Positions 14,351-24,144 of a stretch of DNA of 36,718 nt are shown piece after piece. The stretch comes from Candidatus Gastranaerophilales bacterium. Lineage in GTDB: Bacteria; Cyanobacteriota; Vampirovibrionia; Gastranaerophilales; Gastranaerophilaceae. The notes beneath the pieces are model-generated. The model was not told where the DNA came from, did not search any database, and saw only the letters and a program-made list of their open reading frames with translations. The first letter of the stretch is position 1, and every line of letters begins with the position of its first letter. Made by a program: the position numbers and the translations under genes. The stretch spans positions 1-36,718 of the forward strand of contig CANPYC010000020.1 of the NCBI GenBank assembly GCA_947587615.1, written 5' to 3'.

Positions 14351-15232
14351 TTATTTGCAGCTTTTTAATTCCGTTAAAATTTTACACATTAAAAATGCAA
14401 AACCCATAACCAAAGCAACCGCCAATAAATTATTTGTTATAATTAATCCTAATTTATCTTGAATTAAATTTGATAAGTTGTATATTGCACTTTGTGCGCC
14501 AAGGGCGATTGTATCAGCTTTTAAAAGTGCCCAATCCAGCCCGTCGGGTTTTGTTGAAGCATAGTTTGATATAATGCCCGCTAAAATTAAAGTAGCTAAA
14601 AAAAGCGAGGTGTTTATTTTCTTTAGATTAAATTTGTTAAAGCTATAAACAATAAATGCACTAAATATACCTTCAATAATTCCTTGGGGCAGGTGTGATA
14701 TTTGTAAGAGCGAAAATATTTGATAAGAATTATTTACAGTATTTGATAATATTATTTCAACTGCCGCAAACAATGCTCCAAATTGAACCGCAGCAAATGA
14801 AGAAGCTAAGCAGGCAAGAAAATTATTACTTTTTAAAGGTTTATATATTAAAGGATAAACGACAAAACAAGGAATAAAACCCATATTAAAAATATTACAT
14901 CCTAAAGCCGGTAATCCGCCGTCATTGAAAAATAATGCTTGAAGGGTTAAAATTAAAGCCATTGACAAAAAACCGAGATTTTTCCCAAGTAAAATCGCAA
15001 GCAAAACCCCGCCAATTATATGTACACTTGATTGCATAGCAGGAATTGAAAAATTAATCATCTGAAGCGCAAAAACAAAAGCAATTAAAACCATTGTTTT
15101 AATGATATCCTCTTTTTTAAATTCGTTCTTTGCGTTCCTAATTGCCCGAATTGCCCAAATTGTACCAACACCCATAGCGCCACCCATAACAGCAGCTGTG
15201 TAGGGACAAATAATTGAATTACCTAAGTGCAT
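14351..15232 (-). CDS. Nickel ECF transporter substrate subunit NikMN (LarMN-like)
   Basis: This is a 293-residue polytopic membrane protein of the CbiM/NikM family with a fused NikN (PDGLE) domain. The N-terminus MHLGN keeps His2, which with the N-terminal amine binds the metal in NikM. Family motifs are SSVHIIGGVLLAILLG and FFNDGGLPALGCNIFNMG. The C-terminal part has KPDGLDWAL, the PDGLE signature, between two membrane helices. Cobalt and nickel subunits cannot be told apart by sequence alone, but the neighbouring larB and larC point to nickel. The energising subunits (Q and O) are not in the window. The ribosome binding site GGAG overlaps the end of larC. It is last in the cluster. Confidence 0.85.
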   Translation of the reverse strand: MHLGNSIICPYTAAVMGGAMGVGTIWAIRAIRNAKNEFKKEDIIKTMVLIAFVFALQMINFSIPAMQSSVHIIGGVLLAILLGKNLGFLSMALILTLQALFFNDGGLPALGCNIFNMGFIPCFVVYPLIYKPLKSNNFLACLASSFAAVQFGALFAAVEIILSNTVNNSYQIFSLLQISHLPQGIIEGIFSAFIVYSFNKFNLKKINTSLFLATLILAGIISNYASTKPDGLDWALLKADTIALGAQSAIYNLSNLIQDKLGLIITNNLLAVALVMGFAFLMCKILTELKSCK

Positions 15233-15235
15233 ACT

Positions 15236-16027
15236 TTACTCCTTATTAACTTCTATTTGCATAACTCTTAAAATCGGATTTTTATAGTTTCTTTTTCCTG
15301 CTCCATAGCCGATTTTATTAATTGTAAAGCTATCGGGCAGTTTGTTATTCTGCTTATATAGGGCAGCGACAATTGCAGCTCCCGTCGGAGTTATCATCTC
15401 ACCGATATTTGAGGTTATTTTTATCGGAATTTTATACTCTGATACAATCTCACAAACTGCAGGAACAGGTACGCTCAATAGCCCATGCTGACACATAATT
15501 TCACCGGAGCCCTCTGAAAGCGTTGAAAAATAAACATTATTCGGGTTCAATTCACAAAATAAAACACTAAATGATAAAATATCAACAATTGAATCAATTG
15601 CGCCGATTTCGTGAAAATGTATATCTTTAATATCTTTTCTGTGGACTTTTGATTCGGCTAAAGCTACAATATTAAAGATTTTTTTGGCAAGAACTTTCGC
15701 TTCATTAGAGCAGGCTGCTTTATTAATTATACTTACAATATCATCCAAGTTTCTATGGATATGGTGATGCCCGGGGTGATTTTTATGGTCATGTTCGTTG
15801 TGGTGTTCGTCATGGTGTTCTTCGGGGTGCTTTGGTAAAATCACGTTAAAATCAGTTGCATGGATTGAATTAATCAATTTATCCGTAATTTCATAACTGA
15901 ATTCATTTTCTAAATTCAAAGAACTCAAAGCTTCATCAAGCTTTTTTCTATCCGCTCCCAAATCCAATAAGGAAGCTACCGCCATATCACCCGATATTCC
16001 AAAATTACAATCAAAATATAAATCCAT
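15236..16027 (-). CDS. larC: LarC N-terminal domain (LarC1), nickel-pincer cofactor nickel insertion
   Basis: This 263-residue protein matches the first domain of LarC (MDLYFDCNFGISGDMAVASLL; FHEIGAIDSIVDI; TPTGAAIVAAL; GYGAGKRNYKNPILRVM), the CTP-dependent enzyme that inserts nickel into the pincer cofactor of lactate racemase. A His-rich loop at residues 67-91 holds 12 histidines, as in other LarC, and probably binds nickel. Full LarC is about 400 residues; the second domain (LarC2) is missing. In Lactobacillus plantarum LarC2 is reached by a programmed frameshift. That cannot happen here, because nikMN begins 3 bases after the stop and no LarC2-like sequence follows. LarC2 may be encoded elsewhere or the protein may work differently. 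The larB stop TAG abuts the ATG. Confidence 0.88.
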   Translation of the reverse strand: MDLYFDCNFGISGDMAVASLLDLGADRKKLDEALSSLNLENEFSYEITDKLINSIHATDFNVILPKHPEEHHDEHHNEHDHKNHPGHHHIHRNLDDIVSIINKAACSNEAKVLAKKIFNIVALAESKVHRKDIKDIHFHEIGAIDSIVDILSFSVLFCELNPNNVYFSTLSEGSGEIMCQHGLLSVPVPAVCEIVSEYKIPIKITSNIGEMITPTGAAIVAALYKQNNKLPDSFTINKIGYGAGKRNYKNPILRVMQIEVNKE

Positions 16028-16688
16028 CTAAGCTCCTGTAATTAATATGTTTATTTGATTGGCGCAATAACCCGCACTAAAACCGTTATCAATATTAACA
16101 ACGCTCATTCCTTCAGCGCAAGAATTTATCATTGATAAAAGTGCGCTAATACCGTTCATTGAAGCCCCGTAACCAACGGAAACAGGTAGCGCTATAACGG
16201 GTTTATCAACAAGCCCTGTAATAACACTTGCTAAAGCGCCATCCATGCCTGCTGCAACTACTATTACATTACATTTTCTTATTTCATCAATGCAATTTAA
16301 GAGTCTGTTGAGTCCTGCAATGCCGATATCAAAAAATTGTTTTGTGTTGCTTCCGTAAAATTGCGCTGTTTCATCCGCTTCAAGAGCTTTTGGAATATCA
16401 CCTGCACCTGCCGTACAAATTGCAACAAGACCCTTTTTTTTCAATAGGTTTTTGAATGAGTGTTATAACTTTTGAAATTTTATTATAGTTTAAATTTTCA
16501 AATTTATCTTTTAAAAAATTATACTGTTCAAGGCTTGCTCTTGTACCTATTATATTTTGAGAATTATCATAAAACTTTTTAAAGATACTATAGAGCATTT
16601 CGTTTGTTTTACATTCGCAAAACACAGCCTCAGAATATCCCCGCCTTTTTAATCTGTCTAAATCAATGTTAATAAAATCAGAGCTCAT
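16028..16688 (-). pseudogene. larB: LarB (pyridinium-3,5-biscarboxylate mononucleotide synthase), interrupted by one frameshift
   Basis: LarB carboxylates and hydrolyses nicotinic acid adenine dinucleotide in the first step of the nickel-pincer cofactor. The gene is in two frames. The 5' part (16688 to about 16440) encodes DLDRLKRRGYSEAVFCECKT and the N-terminal half. The 3' part encodes GLVAICTAGAGDIPKAL, VVAAGMDGALASVITGLV, LPVSVGYGAS and MSVVNIDNGFSAGYCANQ, the conserved PurE-like catalytic domain. The frames join at eight A's (T-run 16434-16441); seven A's would restore one 219-220-residue protein. The needed shift is +1 (or -2), not the -1 of a classical A AAA AAG slip. It may be a sequencing error, a mutation, or slippage during transcription. 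The start overlaps the previous stop (ATGA). Confidence 0.85.
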
Positions 16689-17725
16689 ATTTTAATATTA
16701 CTACCTAAACAGTGCTTCAAGTCAAGAGTTATTTTTTTATCGTCTTTTTGATAGTCTTGTTTTGTCTTAATACGGTTCAAAAGAGAAACAGCCCCCGCAA
16801 TTAAGACTGTATTAATTAAAAAAGTTGAAAGCATGGCGATATTCTTACTTTTTAAGGTTTTACTTTTTAGGGACATGCTTTTATTTTTTGTTAATTTTGA
16901 TATTTCATCATAGGTCATTATTTTATTATTTTTTATTAAATTAGTGTTAAATAATTTATCGCAGGTTTTATAAATCGGTTTTTCAATGATTTTATCTCCA
17001 AAAAGCATTAAAGGAACAGTTATTGAAAACCTTCTTATATTTTCATTTTTTTCATATTTATCTCTGCTTGAATTAAGATAGCTTAAAATGCTCACAGGGT
17101 AAATTAAAGCGGCATAATGTTTTGTTGTTAAATCGTTGGTTTTTGTAAAATCAAAATGTTTAATTGTTTTATCAAGTACAGGTTCAATTGCTTTATAGAA
17201 AGTTTTATTTTTTGATAAGAGGTTTAATAAAAAAGTTGAGCTCAATGTTGTTAAACTTATTAAACCAAGTTTTTTAATAAGGTTTTTTATTTTGTTTTCC
17301 TTATTTTCCTTGTTTTCTTCATTTGGGTTTTCACTATGTTTGTAATTATTTAAGGCAATAACCGAGCTAAACTTATCTTTATTTGTCTTTTTATAGGTCA
17401 AATAATTTCTAATCGGCGCAATTGAATATATCATAGGAAGAATTATTCCAAAAACACTTGCTATTTTTGAAAATTTTGCCAATTTTTGCGCTTTAATACC
17501 TTTTGCATTTGAAAAAAACTTTGACATTGTTTTTGCTAAAATCGGTGCTGAAAAATAAAATATAGCAGATTCAGAGGTTTCTTGAAAAATTATTTCTCTT
17601 GTTTCATCTTTTGAGCGAGATAAAGCCAATTTTGGAACAAGACAACCTCCCGTATCTTTTAAAAACATAGCGCATGATGTACTTGCTTCAAGCAGTTTTA
17701 TTGGGTTAATCGGACTAAGAGGCAT
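16685..17725 (-). CDS. Unrecognised multi-pass membrane protein between tatC and larB
   Basis: This 346-residue basic protein is not a family I recognise. Membrane-like segments are seen near residues 87-103 (VFGIILPMIYSIAP), 154-170 (GLISLTTLSSTFLLNLL) and 296-315 (STFLINTVLIAGAVSLL), with a weaker one near 54-67. A polar Asn/Glu/Lys-rich stretch lies at 130-148. It overlaps the end of tatC by 11 bases and the start of larB by 4 (ATGA), so it is translated with both. The position suggests it works with the Tat or nickel functions, but that is guilt by association only. It may be lineage specific. Confidence 0.75.
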   Translation of the reverse strand: MPLSPINPIKLLEASTSCAMFLKDTGGCLVPKLALSRSKDETREIIFQETSESAIFYFSAPILAKTMSKFFSNAKGIKAQKLAKFSKIASVFGIILPMIYSIAPIRNYLTYKKTNKDKFSSVIALNNYKHSENPNEENKENKENKIKNLIKKLGLISLTTLSSTFLLNLLSKNKTFYKAIEPVLDKTIKHFDFTKTNDLTTKHYAALIYPVSILSYLNSSRDKYEKNENIRRFSITVPLMLFGDKIIEKPIYKTCDKLFNTNLIKNNKIMTYDEISKLTKNKSMSLKSKTLKSKNIAMLSTFLINTVLIAGAVSLLNRIKTKQDYQKDDKKITLDLKHCLGSNIKI

Positions 17726-18452
17726 TTTTTACTTTCTTTGAAAAAATTAAACCAAGCTCAAATAATAGATATGAAGGAATAAACAGCATAACTTGAGAAA
17801 CAACATCAGGAGGAGTTAAAAAAGCCGATATTATTAACAATATTACAACAACATAAGGTCTTTTTGAGCTGATTGAATAATATGAAACAATATCCCACTT
17901 AATTAAAGAATAAACAACTAAAGGCAATTGAAACATTAAACCAAACACAACGCTAAGCCAAAGAATTAAATTAACAATACTTGTAATATTAAAAACAGGC
18001 TGAATTTGCGAGCTTGAAAAACTCAAACCAAACCTTATTATTAAAGGAAGTATAAAAAACCCGCAAAAACAAACACCCAAAATAAAAAGAAAACTTGAAA
18101 CAAAAACAATTGATTTAATAAATTTTCTTTCATTATCATATAGAGCAGGCTTTATAAACCCCCATAAATTTTTTATTATATAAGGACTTGATACAACCAA
18201 AGAAACAACAAAAGCAAGCTTAATTTGAAGAATAAAAACTTCAACGGGTGTAAAATAGTTAAATTTTATTTTATTATCCGCTATTAAAAAATTTATTAAA
18301 TAATTCAATATTTTAGGAGCGAAAATAAAACAAAAAGGCAGGGTTACACCAATTGATAAAAAACATTTAACAAGTGTTTTTCTTAGTGCTTCTAAATGCG
18401 ATAAAAAGCTTTCATCAGATGAATTATTATCTTTTTTTAAATCTTCTTCCAT
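17715..18452 (-). CDS. tatC: Twin-arginine translocase subunit TatC
   Basis: This 245-residue, six-helix membrane protein is the signal-recognition core of the Tat system, which exports folded (often Fe-S or metal-containing) proteins. N-terminal SFLSHLEALRKTLVK is the conserved TatC start. FFTPVEVF-type YFTPVEVFILQIK, KPALYDNERKF and the C-terminal SAFLTPPDVVSQVMLFIPSYLLFE are family motifs. The start codon shares one base with the tatA stop (TAATG). A partner with an internal twin-arginine motif is encoded just upstream. No tatB is seen, which is common in organisms with a minimal TatAC system. Confidence 0.95.
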   Translation of the reverse strand: MEEDLKKDNNSSDESFLSHLEALRKTLVKCFLSIGVTLPFCFIFAPKILNYLINFLIADNKIKFNYFTPVEVFILQIKLAFVVSLVVSSPYIIKNLWGFIKPALYDNERKFIKSIVFVSSFLFILGVCFCGFFILPLIIRFGLSFSSSQIQPVFNITSIVNLILWLSVVFGLMFQLPLVVYSLIKWDIVSYYSISSKRPYVVVILLIISAFLTPPDVVSQVMLFIPSYLLFELGLIFSKKVKNAS

Positions 18453-18682
18453 TATACCTGCGGATTTTGGACATCATCTTTTAATTGGTATTCCTGCGGT
18501 TTTGGGGTATCATCAACACTGTCTTTAATTTCTTGCGCTTCTTTTTTAATCATTTCCTTTGCTTTTTTAAATTCATAGTTAGCTCGACCAAGCGCCCTTG
18601 CTAATTCAGGTATTCTTTTTCCTCCAAATAAAAGCAAAATTGCAATTATTATTAATGTAATTTCGGTTATACCAAGCGACAT
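18452..18682 (-). CDS. tatA: Twin-arginine translocase subunit TatA
   Basis: This 76-residue protein has one N-terminal membrane helix ([17 protein letters not shown]), then the hinge and amphipathic helix [21 protein letters not shown], the signature of TatA/E. An acidic, proline-containing tail follows. TatA oligomers form the Tat pore together with TatC, encoded immediately downstream with a one-base overlap. It begins 43 bases after the end of the polyferredoxin gene in the same direction. Confidence 0.95.
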
Positions 18683-18725: not shown

Positions 18726-20013
18726 TTATATCATTCTTTGATTTTGAATTGCAAAAATATCTATTGCGCCATTAGGACACTCTTTAGCACATCTTGCGCA
18801 CCCTATACACTTTGAAGGGTCTATCGTTACAATATTATTATCATCTTTATAAATTGCCCCTTTAGGGCATTTTGTCATACAAATTGAACAATTTAAACAT
18901 TTTTCACGATTTAGAATTGCCATTGCTATTCTTGTGTTTTGTTTTTCATCCTGTTTTATTTTCCTTATTGCACCGGAGGGGCAATTTTTAGAACATTCAG
19001 AGCAGTCAAATTTGCAATATCCTTCCCCTTTGGAATAATCTATATGAATAAAAGAAAAATCTTTATTTGCTTTTTGAATAATCTTATTAGGGCAATTATT
19101 AACGCATAAGTTGCAATTTAGGCATTTTTTTGAAAATTCTTCTTCTGATACTGCCCCGGGCGGTAGGATTATATTTTTAATTCTATAAGCAACTTTTTTA
19201 CCGTATTCAAGACTTGCTTTATAAATTGCACCAAAAAGCGCTAAAGCTGAAATTGAATAAATAAAATCTCTTCTTTTTAAGCTGAATTTACAATCTTCTT
19301 TTTTCTTTATTCCATACCCTATTGCGTCTTTTTTGCATACCGATAAACATTTTAAACATTTTACACAAGTAACGTTATCAACAGCTTTTTCTTTTGAATT
19401 AATTGAACCTGTCGGGCAATTTTTTTCACACATTGAACAAGAAACGCATTTTTCTTTATCAATCTTAATTTTATTTAATGATATTTTAGACAACAAGCCC
19501 AATACAGCACCAATCGGACAAATATTCGAGCAAAAAAATCTGTCTTTAAAAAATACAACGGCTAAAACTATCAGTGTTGCAACAATTCCAAAAATTGACA
19601 GTGTTATAGCGGAACCAAATATTGTATATGGGTCAACATATCTTAAAAACATTGCCCCATAACCAAATAAAGCGCCATAAACACCAGCTGCAATAAAATA
19701 TTTCAAAGCCAGATTTTTTTTTGAAGGCTCTATCTTTTTTTGCAAATTTATTAACACCAAGTGAAAATAATTCCTGCAATATTCCAAAAGGGCATAATAA
19801 AGAGCAAAATACCCTTCCAAATAAAAGCGTTAAGATAAACAGGCTAAGAAAAAGTGCAAGTGCAGCTATTGAATAATTAACACTAAGGCGCTGAATTAGC
19901 GCACCAAGCTCAACATCCAAAAATTTAAAAGGATATAATCCCCAAAAAGCAAGGATAGAAGCTATTAAGATAAAAGTTATAATTATGATTCTAATCTTGT
20001 GCGCTTTTTTCAT
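18726..20013 (-). pseudogene. NapH-NapG-like fusion polyferredoxin with internal Tat signal, interrupted by one frameshift
   Basis: Joined across the frame break this is a protein of about 428 residues. The N-terminal part is NapH-like: membrane helices and two CxxxCP motifs (VFCSLLCPFG and FFCSNICPIG), then cytoplasmic-type 4Fe-4S motifs (CVSCSMCEKNC, CVKCLKCLSVC). Next comes KRRDFIYSISALALFGA (arginine codons 19269-19274), a twin-arginine motif before a hydrophobic helix. After it the protein is NapG-like: ILPPGAVSEEEF, CLNCNLCVNNCP, CSECSKNCP, CLNCSICMTKCP and CIGCARCAKECP. So the C-terminal Fe-S domain is probably exported by Tat, with the protein carrying electrons across the membrane. 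The reading frames, 20013 leftwards and up to 19820, join at nine A's (19714-19722) or seven A's (19735-19741). One A fewer restores the frame. Tat genes follow at once. Confidence 0.8.
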
Positions 20014-20015
20014 TG

Positions 20016-20951
20016 TTAGCCTGCAATTTTTTTCTTTTCGTCTGCAATTTTAGTTAATAAATTAGGTATATCAAGCCCTTGCGGACAATTTTTTGAACAT
20101 AAACCGCATTTTATGCAGGCTTCGGGTTTTTCGGAGTCTGCTAAAGTGTCATAATAAACCCCAAAAAGCATTTTATTTTTTGTTACTTTGTATTGGTTAT
20201 ATAAAGAAAATGCGGCAGGAATATTGATTTTATTAGGACAAACCTCCATGCAATATTTGCAAGCCGTACAGTTTATTTCGCCCTGCGATTGAATAATTTT
20301 AGCTATTTCATCGGCTGTTTGTTCTTCTTCAGATGTCATATCTTTATAATTAATAAATGTTTCAATATTTTGCTTAACCTGCTCCAATGAACTCATACCG
20401 CTTAAAACGGTTACAACATTTTTTCTGCTTGCTGCCCATCTTAAACCAAACTCGGCAGGTGTTGTGCTCGGGTATTTTTCTTTCAGTTTTTCCATTGCTT
20501 TATCTGAAAGATTTACAAGCCCGCCACCTCTTAAAGGTTCCATAACAGTAACGGGAATACCTTGTGCTTGAACTATGTCATATTGCTCATGCGCTTTTAC
20601 AACATCCCAATCAAGATAGTTTACCTGAAGCTGTGCAAAATCCCACGGATGCTCAGGCGCAACTTCTTTTAACATGTCAGGTGTTCCATGGAAAGAAAAA
20701 CCGACATATTTTACCATGCCCTGTTTTTTAAAGTCCATAATCTGCTCATACATATCAAAATTGCGATAGTTATCAATCGTATTTTTATTGATATTATGAA
20801 CCATATAAAAATCAAAATAGTCTGTTTGACATCTTTTTAGTTGTTCTTCAAAAATTCTTTTAACAATTTTACCTACCGCCAATAAAGCCAATAAAAAATA
20901 TAACGGATGTTTTACAAGATTAACGTTTTGATTTGATACCAATTTATCCAT
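20016..20951 (-). CDS. Aldo/keto reductase with C-terminal 4Fe-4S domain, N-terminally truncated
   Basis: This 311-residue protein matches the family of Fe-S aldo/keto reductases from anaerobes, which are normally some 370-390 residues. From about residue 33 the match is good: IFEEQLKRCQTDYFDFYMVHN, VKYVGFSFHGTPD, PVTVMEPLRGGGLVNL, and two C-terminal clusters CTACKYCMEVCP and CIKCGLCSKNCP. The first roughly 80-100 residues of the barrel, with the catalytic Asp, Tyr and Lys and the start of the NADPH site, are replaced by about 32 unrelated residues. Only the histidine of the tetrad (MVHN) remains. No remnant is seen upstream in other frames. So the reductase activity is doubtful; the ferredoxin part could still carry electrons. 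The stop is 2 bases from the next ATG. Confidence 0.8.
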   Translation of the reverse strand: MDKLVSNQNVNLVKHPLYFLLALLAVGKIVKRIFEEQLKRCQTDYFDFYMVHNINKNTIDNYRNFDMYEQIMDFKKQGMVKYVGFSFHGTPDMLKEVAPEHPWDFAQLQVNYLDWDVVKAHEQYDIVQAQGIPVTVMEPLRGGGLVNLSDKAMEKLKEKYPSTTPAEFGLRWAASRKNVVTVLSGMSSLEQVKQNIETFINYKDMTSEEEQTADEIAKIIQSQGEINCTACKYCMEVCPNKINIPAAFSLYNQYKVTKNKMLFGVYYDTLADSEKPEACIKCGLCSKNCPQGLDIPNLLTKIADEKKKIAG

Positions 20952-21040: not shown

Positions 21041-21874
21041 TCAATTTCCCAAATTCTCCAAAACCTCATTCAAACTTCCGCTCCTGTATCCTAAAAGGTC
21101 TAGTGCTGTGTAGTTAAATCCCAAGTCTTTAAATTTAGAAGTAATTTCATCTTTAATTTCTTTTTGAATTATTTTTTCAAAATCCTCTTCATTAATTTCA
21201 ATTCTTGCAATATCTTTATGTAATCTCACTCTGAATTGCTTAAAACCTAATTTAGCCAGAATTTCTTCTGCGCTATCAATCATATTCAGTTTTTTTTCTG
21301 TAATTATATCGCCATAAGGTATTCTTGAAGCAAGACAAGCAAAAGAGGGTTTATTATATGTATATAAATTAAGCTCTTTAGATAAATTTCTTATATCTTC
21401 TTTTGTAAAGTTATAAATACAAAAAGGACTTAAAATATTTAATTCGCTTAATGCTCTTCTACCGGGTCTATAATCGGTATTATCGCTTATATTTGAACCT
21501 TCAAGAATATTTGAGATATTATTCAGTTTTGCAATTTCAATTATTTTTGAAAAAATTTCATATTTACAAATATAACAGCGCTCTTTTGGATTATTTGCAA
21601 ATTTTTCAATGCTAAAATCAAAAACAATATGTCTGATATTATTCTTTTTGCAAAAAATTTGCGCTTCTTCTATCTCACGTTTTGGAATTTGAGCACTTCT
21701 GGCACTAAGTGCTAATACATTTTTATCTTTTTTATCTTTTTTATCAAGCGCAAGTTTAGCTAAGTATAATAAAAGTGTTGAATCAACCCCTGCGCTATAA
21801 GCAACAACAGCAGAGTTTAAGCTTTTTAGATAATTAATTATATTATCATATTTCTTTTTTAAAATATCGTCCAT
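21041..21874 (-). CDS. larE: LarE, sulfur-transferring enzyme of nickel-pincer cofactor synthesis
   Basis: This is a 277-residue PP-loop ATPase. The PP-loop is AYSAGVDST (usually SGGVDS) at residues about 25-33. NPKERCYICKYEIF, EGSNISDNTDYRPGRRAL and KPSFACLASRIPYG are conserved in LarE. LarE adenylates the carboxylates of the LarB product and turns them into thiocarboxylates, sacrificing a cysteine or using a 4Fe-4S cluster. Candidate cysteines are the two in ERCYICK and one in FACLASR. It lies 89 bases upstream of the reductase gene in the same direction as larB and larC, so one transcript is possible. larA (the racemase) is not in the window. Confidence 0.9.
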   Translation of the reverse strand: MDDILKKKYDNIINYLKSLNSAVVAYSAGVDSTLLLYLAKLALDKKDKKDKNVLALSARSAQIPKREIEEAQIFCKKNNIRHIVFDFSIEKFANNPKERCYICKYEIFSKIIEIAKLNNISNILEGSNISDNTDYRPGRRALSELNILSPFCIYNFTKEDIRNLSKELNLYTYNKPSFACLASRIPYGDIITEKKLNMIDSAEEILAKLGFKQFRVRLHKDIARIEINEEDFEKIIQKEIKDEITSKFKDLGFNYTALDLLGYRSGSLNEVLENLGN

Positions 21875-23318: not shown

Positions 23319-24144
23319 TTATTTTGTAACCTCCTGCAGTGCTTTTAGTGCGGCAAAACTATCCGGAAAACCGATATAGGGCATAATTTGAATAATTGCT
23401 GCCGTTATTGTTTCAATAGAATTACCTGTTTTTAAATTACCTTTAATATGGCTTTTTAGAGTATCAGTGTTTTTTGTTGTTGTTAAAATTGCAATCGTTA
23501 AAAGTTCTCTTGTTTTAAGGTCTAAACCCTCTCTTGTATAAAAATCACCAAAGCAGACTTCGGTTAAAAATCTTGCAACATCATCTCCCATATTATCAGG
23601 CAGTTTTTTAAAAGTTTTTTTAATTTCATCGCCATAAATCGGGTTTTGAATTTCAAAGCCTTTTTTAAATCTGTCGGCTTCGGTTGCCGTTGCGGTTGAT
23701 TTAAGTTCTTTTTCAAGTCCTCTTTCTTTTATGACTTCGCTAAAAACGGCTATTGCATTAAGAGTTTTTTGGAAAACCGATAAAAGGAGCGCATTGATAA
23801 ATTGCTTCTCTAATTTCAATACATGTGTTTCCTGCATTCAATGCCCCGTTAATATGAGCCTTTAATTGCGGAAGTGTTTGTAAGCAGGTGAGCGTTGTAA
23901 CCGTCAAGAGTTCTCTTGTTTTAATATCTAAATTTCCAACCTCAAAAACTTCGCCAAAAATATATTTTTGTAAAATATCCATAAAGTCTTTATCAGCGCC
24001 CGAATTATTTTCAAGGCTGATATTAAAAAGAGTTTGAAGATTTTTATTTGCAATATCATATCTTGTCATTTTTTCCTCCTTAGCAAATAGTGTTGAATTT
24101 ATTAAAAGCATAAATAATAAAATTGATAATATTTTTTTAAACAT
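23319..24144 (-). pseudogene. Exported double carboxymuconolactone-decarboxylase-like protein, interrupted by one frameshift
   Basis: Joined, this is about 274 residues: a signal peptide (MFKKILSILLFMLLINSTLFA), a first CMD domain (LDIKTRELLTVTTLT, QLKAHINGALNAG, APFIGFPK) and a second (LDLKTRELLTIAILT, LKSHIKGNLKTG, MPYIGFPDSF). No CxxC of the AhpD peroxidase type is present, so it resembles the non-redox CMD branch. The two parts are in different frames. At six A's (T-run 23765-23770) frame one reads PKNS-stop, while the next frame continues with TLNAIAVFSEV; five A's would give FPKTLNAIAVF. It precedes the cupin gene by one base and has a promoter upstream. Frame loss could be an error, decay or slippage. 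Confidence 0.82.

Follow-up and report, generated by a model that had tools for sequence, protein, structure and literature searches.

The stretch of DNA analysed here (36,718 nucleotides from a Candidatus Gastranaerophilales bacterium, hereafter the window) probably carries a conserved electron-export cassette that has recently decayed and whose intact relatives would use a NapH-NapG fusion protein, handled by both Sec and Tat, as a wire across the membrane. The main interest lies in the cassette itself and in its near one-to-one tie with Tat in supposed fermenters. The Gastranaerophilales have been described as obligate fermenters that lack respiration genes (Soo et al. 2014, PMC4040986); despite this description, about one-third of the genomes sampled possess an apparent transmembrane electron wire, an exported reductase and Tat, gained or lost together, and we would predict from this that gut bacteria have an electron sink outside the cell that has gone unrecognised. 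The Tat system of the cassette also offers a clear test of the requirements of a minimal, single-client Tat system.

In the window, the fusion gene lies on the minus strand and is divided between two reading frames. The N-terminal fragment (19633..20013, an ORF of 126 aa with a Fer4_5 match) encodes TM1, TM2 and the first CxxxCP motif (FCSLLCP, 19789-19806), its homology stopping near 19745-19759 and giving way to unrelated sequence. The remainder (18726..19759, within an ORF of 364 aa that runs from a TTG, 19820-18726) is in another frame and contains TM3-4, the second CxxxCP motif (FCSNICP, 19515-19532), two cytoplasmic-type 4Fe-4S motifs (~19335-19448), KRRDFIYSISALALFGA with the twin-arginine codons of KRRDFI (19269..19274) ahead of TM5, and then PPGAVSEEEF and the four further cluster motifs of a NapG-like domain (18729..19190, partial TIGR00397 match). 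A tblastn search of the window with an intact homologue (L067) returned two HSPs in different frames (19959-19759 and 19745-18738), and the frame-switch region (19714..19745, minus strand) contains, on the coding strand, runs of A9 (19714-19722) and A7 (19735-19741). The resemblance of the window gene to eleven intact homologues, with E values of 1e-128 to 1e-109 in the first search, is far beyond chance. The original prediction had described a NapH-NapG-like fusion with an internal twin-arginine motif, encoded just upstream of tatA-tatC. Its motif set was recovered in full, and its positions for the arginine codons and its 43-base gap between the gene end and the start of tatA (76 aa; 18452..18682, minus strand; PF02416), with tatC next (17715..18452, minus strand; PF00902, 6.5e-58; TIGR00945 over cut-off), were correct; the single polypeptide that it proposed is rejected for the window, where the two halves lie in different frames.

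The damage extends to the neighbouring genes. The gene for an aldo-keto reductase with a C-terminal 4Fe-4S segment (20016..20951, minus strand) is truncated at its 5' end, and since only residues ~124-407 remain, both the Tat lipoprotein signal and the catalytic D, Y and K are gone. The napHG gene, larB (16028..16688, minus strand) and a gene for an exported carboxymuconolactone-decarboxylase-like (CMD) protein (23319..24144, minus strand) are each split between frames, and tatA, tatC, larC, larE and cbiM are open. Broken genes amount to 4/11 in the module stretch against 0/20 elsewhere in the window (Fisher 0.01, the choice of module-side genes being our own). With a truncated reductase and a frameshifted fusion, the electron pathway is probably dead in the window genome, and the proposed recognition of the internal RR by Tat is unsupported for this copy, whose gene is frameshifted and whose partner reductase has no Tat signal. 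Across gastranaerophilal loci the reductase was broken in 16/76, against 14/370 for the other six genes together, counts in which some loci come from both collections and not all are independent. Loci with a broken reductase (e.g., L074, L130, L154, L176, L181, L184, L188 and L190) differ in the site of the break, and this difference among relatives fits repeated loss of the gene. Phase variation of the reductase was considered and is unsupported, there being no single break site and mostly no long homopolymer.

At the level of the family, the fusion reading fares well. Among named genomes, 80 loci were recovered, which belong to Gastranaerophilales and to gut MAGs that carry the label Alphaproteobacteria or proteobacteria. 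In 78 of them there is, by the ORF filter used, an open single-ORF fusion of 406-457 aa; the intact homologues first found in the order were those of G015, G029, G008, G040, G045, G024, G028, G014, G001, G044 and G012. The internal twin arginines (R244, R245) are invariant in 78/78 while flanking positions vary, and the cluster cysteines vary at only two positions (77/78 and 71/78), with conserved cysteines after the last TMD at 294-304, 328-339, 367-377 and 397-407 forming four 4Fe-4S motifs. On a home-made dG-like scale, which is not that of the published server, TM5 scores +0.85 and TM1-4 score -1.9, -2.6, +0.7 and -1.8, making TM5 and TM3 the least hydrophobic helices; basic residues follow TM5, and residues 266-278 have a median net charge of +1. 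An AlphaFold2 model of moderate confidence (pLDDT 78.6, pTM 0.56) contains a 35-residue helix (242-276) that begins at the RR. A Foldseek search returned no solved structure for the whole fusion, its matches being to ferredoxin modules only. The proposed topology therefore stands for the family on the single ORF, the invariant RR, the weak TM5 and the adjacent tatA-tatC. Both observations that could have told against this proposal, a separate NapG-like gene and an unconserved RR, came out in its favour: none of the close homologues seen had such a gene, and the RR was kept throughout.

The fusion forms the middle of a conserved cassette, in the order aldo-keto reductase (with C-terminal 4Fe-4S and a Tat lipoprotein signal), napHG, tatA and tatC, and it is this setting that is new relative to the literature found; our literature search returned no paper on Melainabacteria with Tat. 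In a survey of 287 genomes of the order, each at least 90% complete, TatC was detected in 109, the fusion in 106 and both in 99 (Fisher 7e-56, a value that overstates the evidence, as related genomes are not independent). Where both occur they are adjacent in 96/99, tatA-tatC directly following the fusion. The same pattern is seen among members of the genus to which the window belongs: those that lack the fusion also lack TatC, except for a remnant in G013. Tat is almost always missing from those genomes of the order that lack the cassette, so tatA-tatC is essentially the cassette's own translocase, and across the order Tat comes close to serving the cassette alone. Beyond tatC, the window encodes a lineage-specific membrane protein (16685..17725, minus strand), found in the same place in L070 and others.

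A reordered cassette is present in gut Alphaproteobacteria, where the reductase is followed by an exported flavodoxin, larB, larC, larE and a membrane protein, and then by napHG, tatA and tatC; the membrane protein has no Pfam match and may be a metal permease. This shuffled form was seen in the MAG loci L158, L161, L163, L166, L169, L177 and L187. TatC is 61% identical between Gastranaerophilales and Alphaproteobacteria, against 62% within Gastranaerophilales, and the reductase only 41% identical between the two groups. As TatC is as alike between the groups as within one of them, the comparison suggests horizontal transfer of the cassette between phyla, mis-binned contigs being a further possibility. 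A more divergent cassette, type II, was also encountered, consisting of reductase, fusion, tatA and tatC with no lar genes (L209-L216; genera g6, g31, g35 and g42).

The intact reductase carries the Tat lipoprotein signal MKRRxFIINSALAxGGxALLxGC at its N-terminus and a double 4Fe-4S segment at its C-terminus, matches PF00248 and the AKR fold, and keeps the tetrad D83, Y88, K114 and H148 invariant in 47 sequences. Its profile matched 112 genomes, including 102/106 fusion-bearing genomes, and the reductase and fusion genes are adjacent in 95/95 pairs with coordinates, with a median gap of 20 bases. The fusion occurs with no detected reductase in G012, G180, G218 and G245, and in some Alphaproteobacteria no reductase adjoins it. 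It is from gene order only that we infer the reductase to be the electron acceptor of the fusion. The CMD-like gene has a homologue beside the module in L073 and L121 (281 aa in L073). In many loci, among them L158, L161, L172, L187, L073 and L114, the reductase adjoins a flavodoxin that has a membrane segment or signal at its N-terminus and is a possible external flavin carrier. Near the cassette, NADPH-dependent FMN reductase-like proteins have Tat lipoprotein-type starts (MKRREFLKNSIITISAMALLSGC; L071:11273-12010 and L172:8204-8947), and by these starts they are likely further Tat clients.

A mechanism can be proposed for the intact relatives. Sec would insert TM1-4 of the fusion, and the RR ahead of the weakly hydrophobic TM5 would pass the C-terminal four-cluster domain to Tat and hence to the outside, as shown for a homologous architecture by Tooke et al. 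2017 (PMC5449189). Electrons would then enter at the cytoplasmic clusters, pass the CxxxCP motifs and reach the outer clusters, from which they would go to the Tat-exported aldo-keto reductase-ferredoxin encoded ~20 bases upstream. As their source, home-made menaquinone would be less likely than a scavenged quinone or cytoplasmic ferredoxin. MqnA was found in 0/9 genomes and MenD over cut-off in 0/12, results that speak against home-made menaquinol as donor; most genomes have a lone MenA-like UbiA prenyltransferase, whether they carry the cassette or not, so that a scavenged precursor might be turned into a quinone.

Not all of the evidence points one way. Since the window copy has kept every key motif, its frameshift may have arisen very recently, may reflect an error of assembly or may be bypassed. 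That it does not exist in vivo, through a sequencing or assembly error in A9 or through RNA polymerase slippage that restores the frame in some transcripts, is a possibility of some weight, though on balance we doubt it. The switch sits at the longest homopolymer of the 36.7-kb window, larB breaks at A8 (16434-16441), and the downstream cysteines and the RR have all survived; yet other A8/T8 runs within ORFs (BioC, ClpX, LarE and TolC-like) are in frame, the run at the break in the CMD gene is only A6, the reductase has lost ~123 codons with no second copy in the genome, and the lesions are clustered in the module. Genuine decay of the window copy is the reading that we retain. For the intact relatives, the RR might be a chance feature, with the NapG-like half kept in the cytoplasm and the protein forming a large cytoplasmic polyferredoxin anchored by NapH. 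The weak hydrophobicity of the helix after the RR speaks for such an arrangement, which we nevertheless regard as very improbable, given the RR invariant in 78/78 beside varying neighbours, the tatAC genes that adjoin the fusion in 96/99 genomes and are mostly missing where it is missing, and the Tat dependence demonstrated for the same architecture (PMC5449189). Export of the C-terminal domain via Tat is accordingly what we predict for the family from these comparisons.

In the window, larC (15236..16027, minus strand; LarC1 domain only) and a cbiM/nikM-type metal uptake gene (14351..15232, minus strand; by tblastn, with PF01891 in a homologue) accompany the frameshifted larB, and larE lies at 21041..21874 (minus strand). 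LarC occurs in 75/85 type I cassette genomes, mostly with larB, cbiM and larE immediately after tatC, and LarC and the fusion go together in 75/83 (Fisher 3e-34). No LarA (PF09861) scored over the cut-off in 41 genomes (30 relatives and 11 cassette genomes), G037 giving a match below it; larB, larC and larE with a CbiM-type transporter and no LarA were seen in the window and in L112-L191. According to a 2024 paper, whose authors infer a client other than LarA, larBCE is present and larA missing in ~15% of genomes (PMC11796402), and the lar genes described here bear on the question of which other proteins use the nickel-pincer nucleotide. One explanation would be that larB-larC-larE make a nickel-pincer-type cofactor for the exported reductase or another protein of the module, a non-LarA user. 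In Gastranaerophilales the lar genes lie next to the cassette, as they do, in a different order, in gut Alphaproteobacteria, a linkage that, with the co-occurrence and the missing LarA, agrees with this explanation. We consider it improbable, however, as 21 type II cassette genomes retain the reductase with no LarC over the cut-off, gastranaerophilal LarC has no LarC2 domain (that of Alphaproteobacteria is full length), the reductase retains an ordinary AKR tetrad, and LarC is present in G220, where the fusion and reductase were not found. An obligate need of the reductase for a pincer cofactor is likewise weakened by the 21 lar-less cassettes that retain reductase, fusion and tatAC, and the literature search gave no paper pairing nickel-pincer with an aldo-keto reductase. 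The fuller version of the idea, in which the lar-linked cassette exports the reductase-ferredoxin or another protein with a nickel-pincer-type cofactor loaded in the cytoplasm, for external hydride chemistry fed by NapH-NapG, seems to us quite improbable. If true, it would provide the first non-LarA client of the cofactor and a reason for fermenters to retain a private Tat system.

The electron-export cassette can be compared with several known systems. The NapG and NapH quinol dehydrogenase of E. coli and Wolinella is alike in its NapH-like (TIGR02163/PRK09477) and NapG-like (TIGR00397) content, with matches of TIGR02163, PRK09477 and TIGR00397 to the fusion all below cut-off; it differs in that NapG and NapH are there two separate genes, whereas the family described here has a single ORF for one polypeptide, in which separate genes over the family cut-offs were not found. 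No nitrate reductase genes were seen beside the fusion, and the fusion genomes differ further from NapGH systems in that no home-made menaquinone pathway was detected in them. The closest likeness is to the polyferredoxins of Tooke et al. 2017 (eLife, PMC5449189), which have an RR before TMD5, include deltaproteobacterial, chloroflexi, nitrospirae and euryarchaeal members, and are exported Tat dependently by dual Sec/Tat targeting, as judged from MBP and AmiA reporters and RR-to-KK changes. The dual-targeting mechanism is already published there for a NapH-NapG architecture and so is not new. The MLMS-1 polyferredoxin (Q1NSB0) and its relatives share with our family the NapH-NapG fusion, five predicted TMDs, the RR before TMD5, four clusters predicted outside, a weak TMD5 and positive residues after it, a placement that rests on these tested features. 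They differ from the cassette in that tatAC linkage and an exported aldo-keto reductase were not found in the passages of PMC5449189 consulted, and from the window copy in that the latter is frameshifted. The actinobacterial Rieske protein Sco2149 resembles the fusion in using Sec first and Tat last, with an internal RR before the final TMD, but has a Rieske 2Fe-2S domain and three TMDs and belongs to another protein family. In Bacillus subtilis, TatAd-TatCd is reportedly linked to PhoD, a dedicated Tat translocase encoded beside its substrate. In both cases the tat genes are tied to a single client locus; in the Gastranaerophilales, by contrast, no Tat besides this one was found, and it comes and goes with the cassette.
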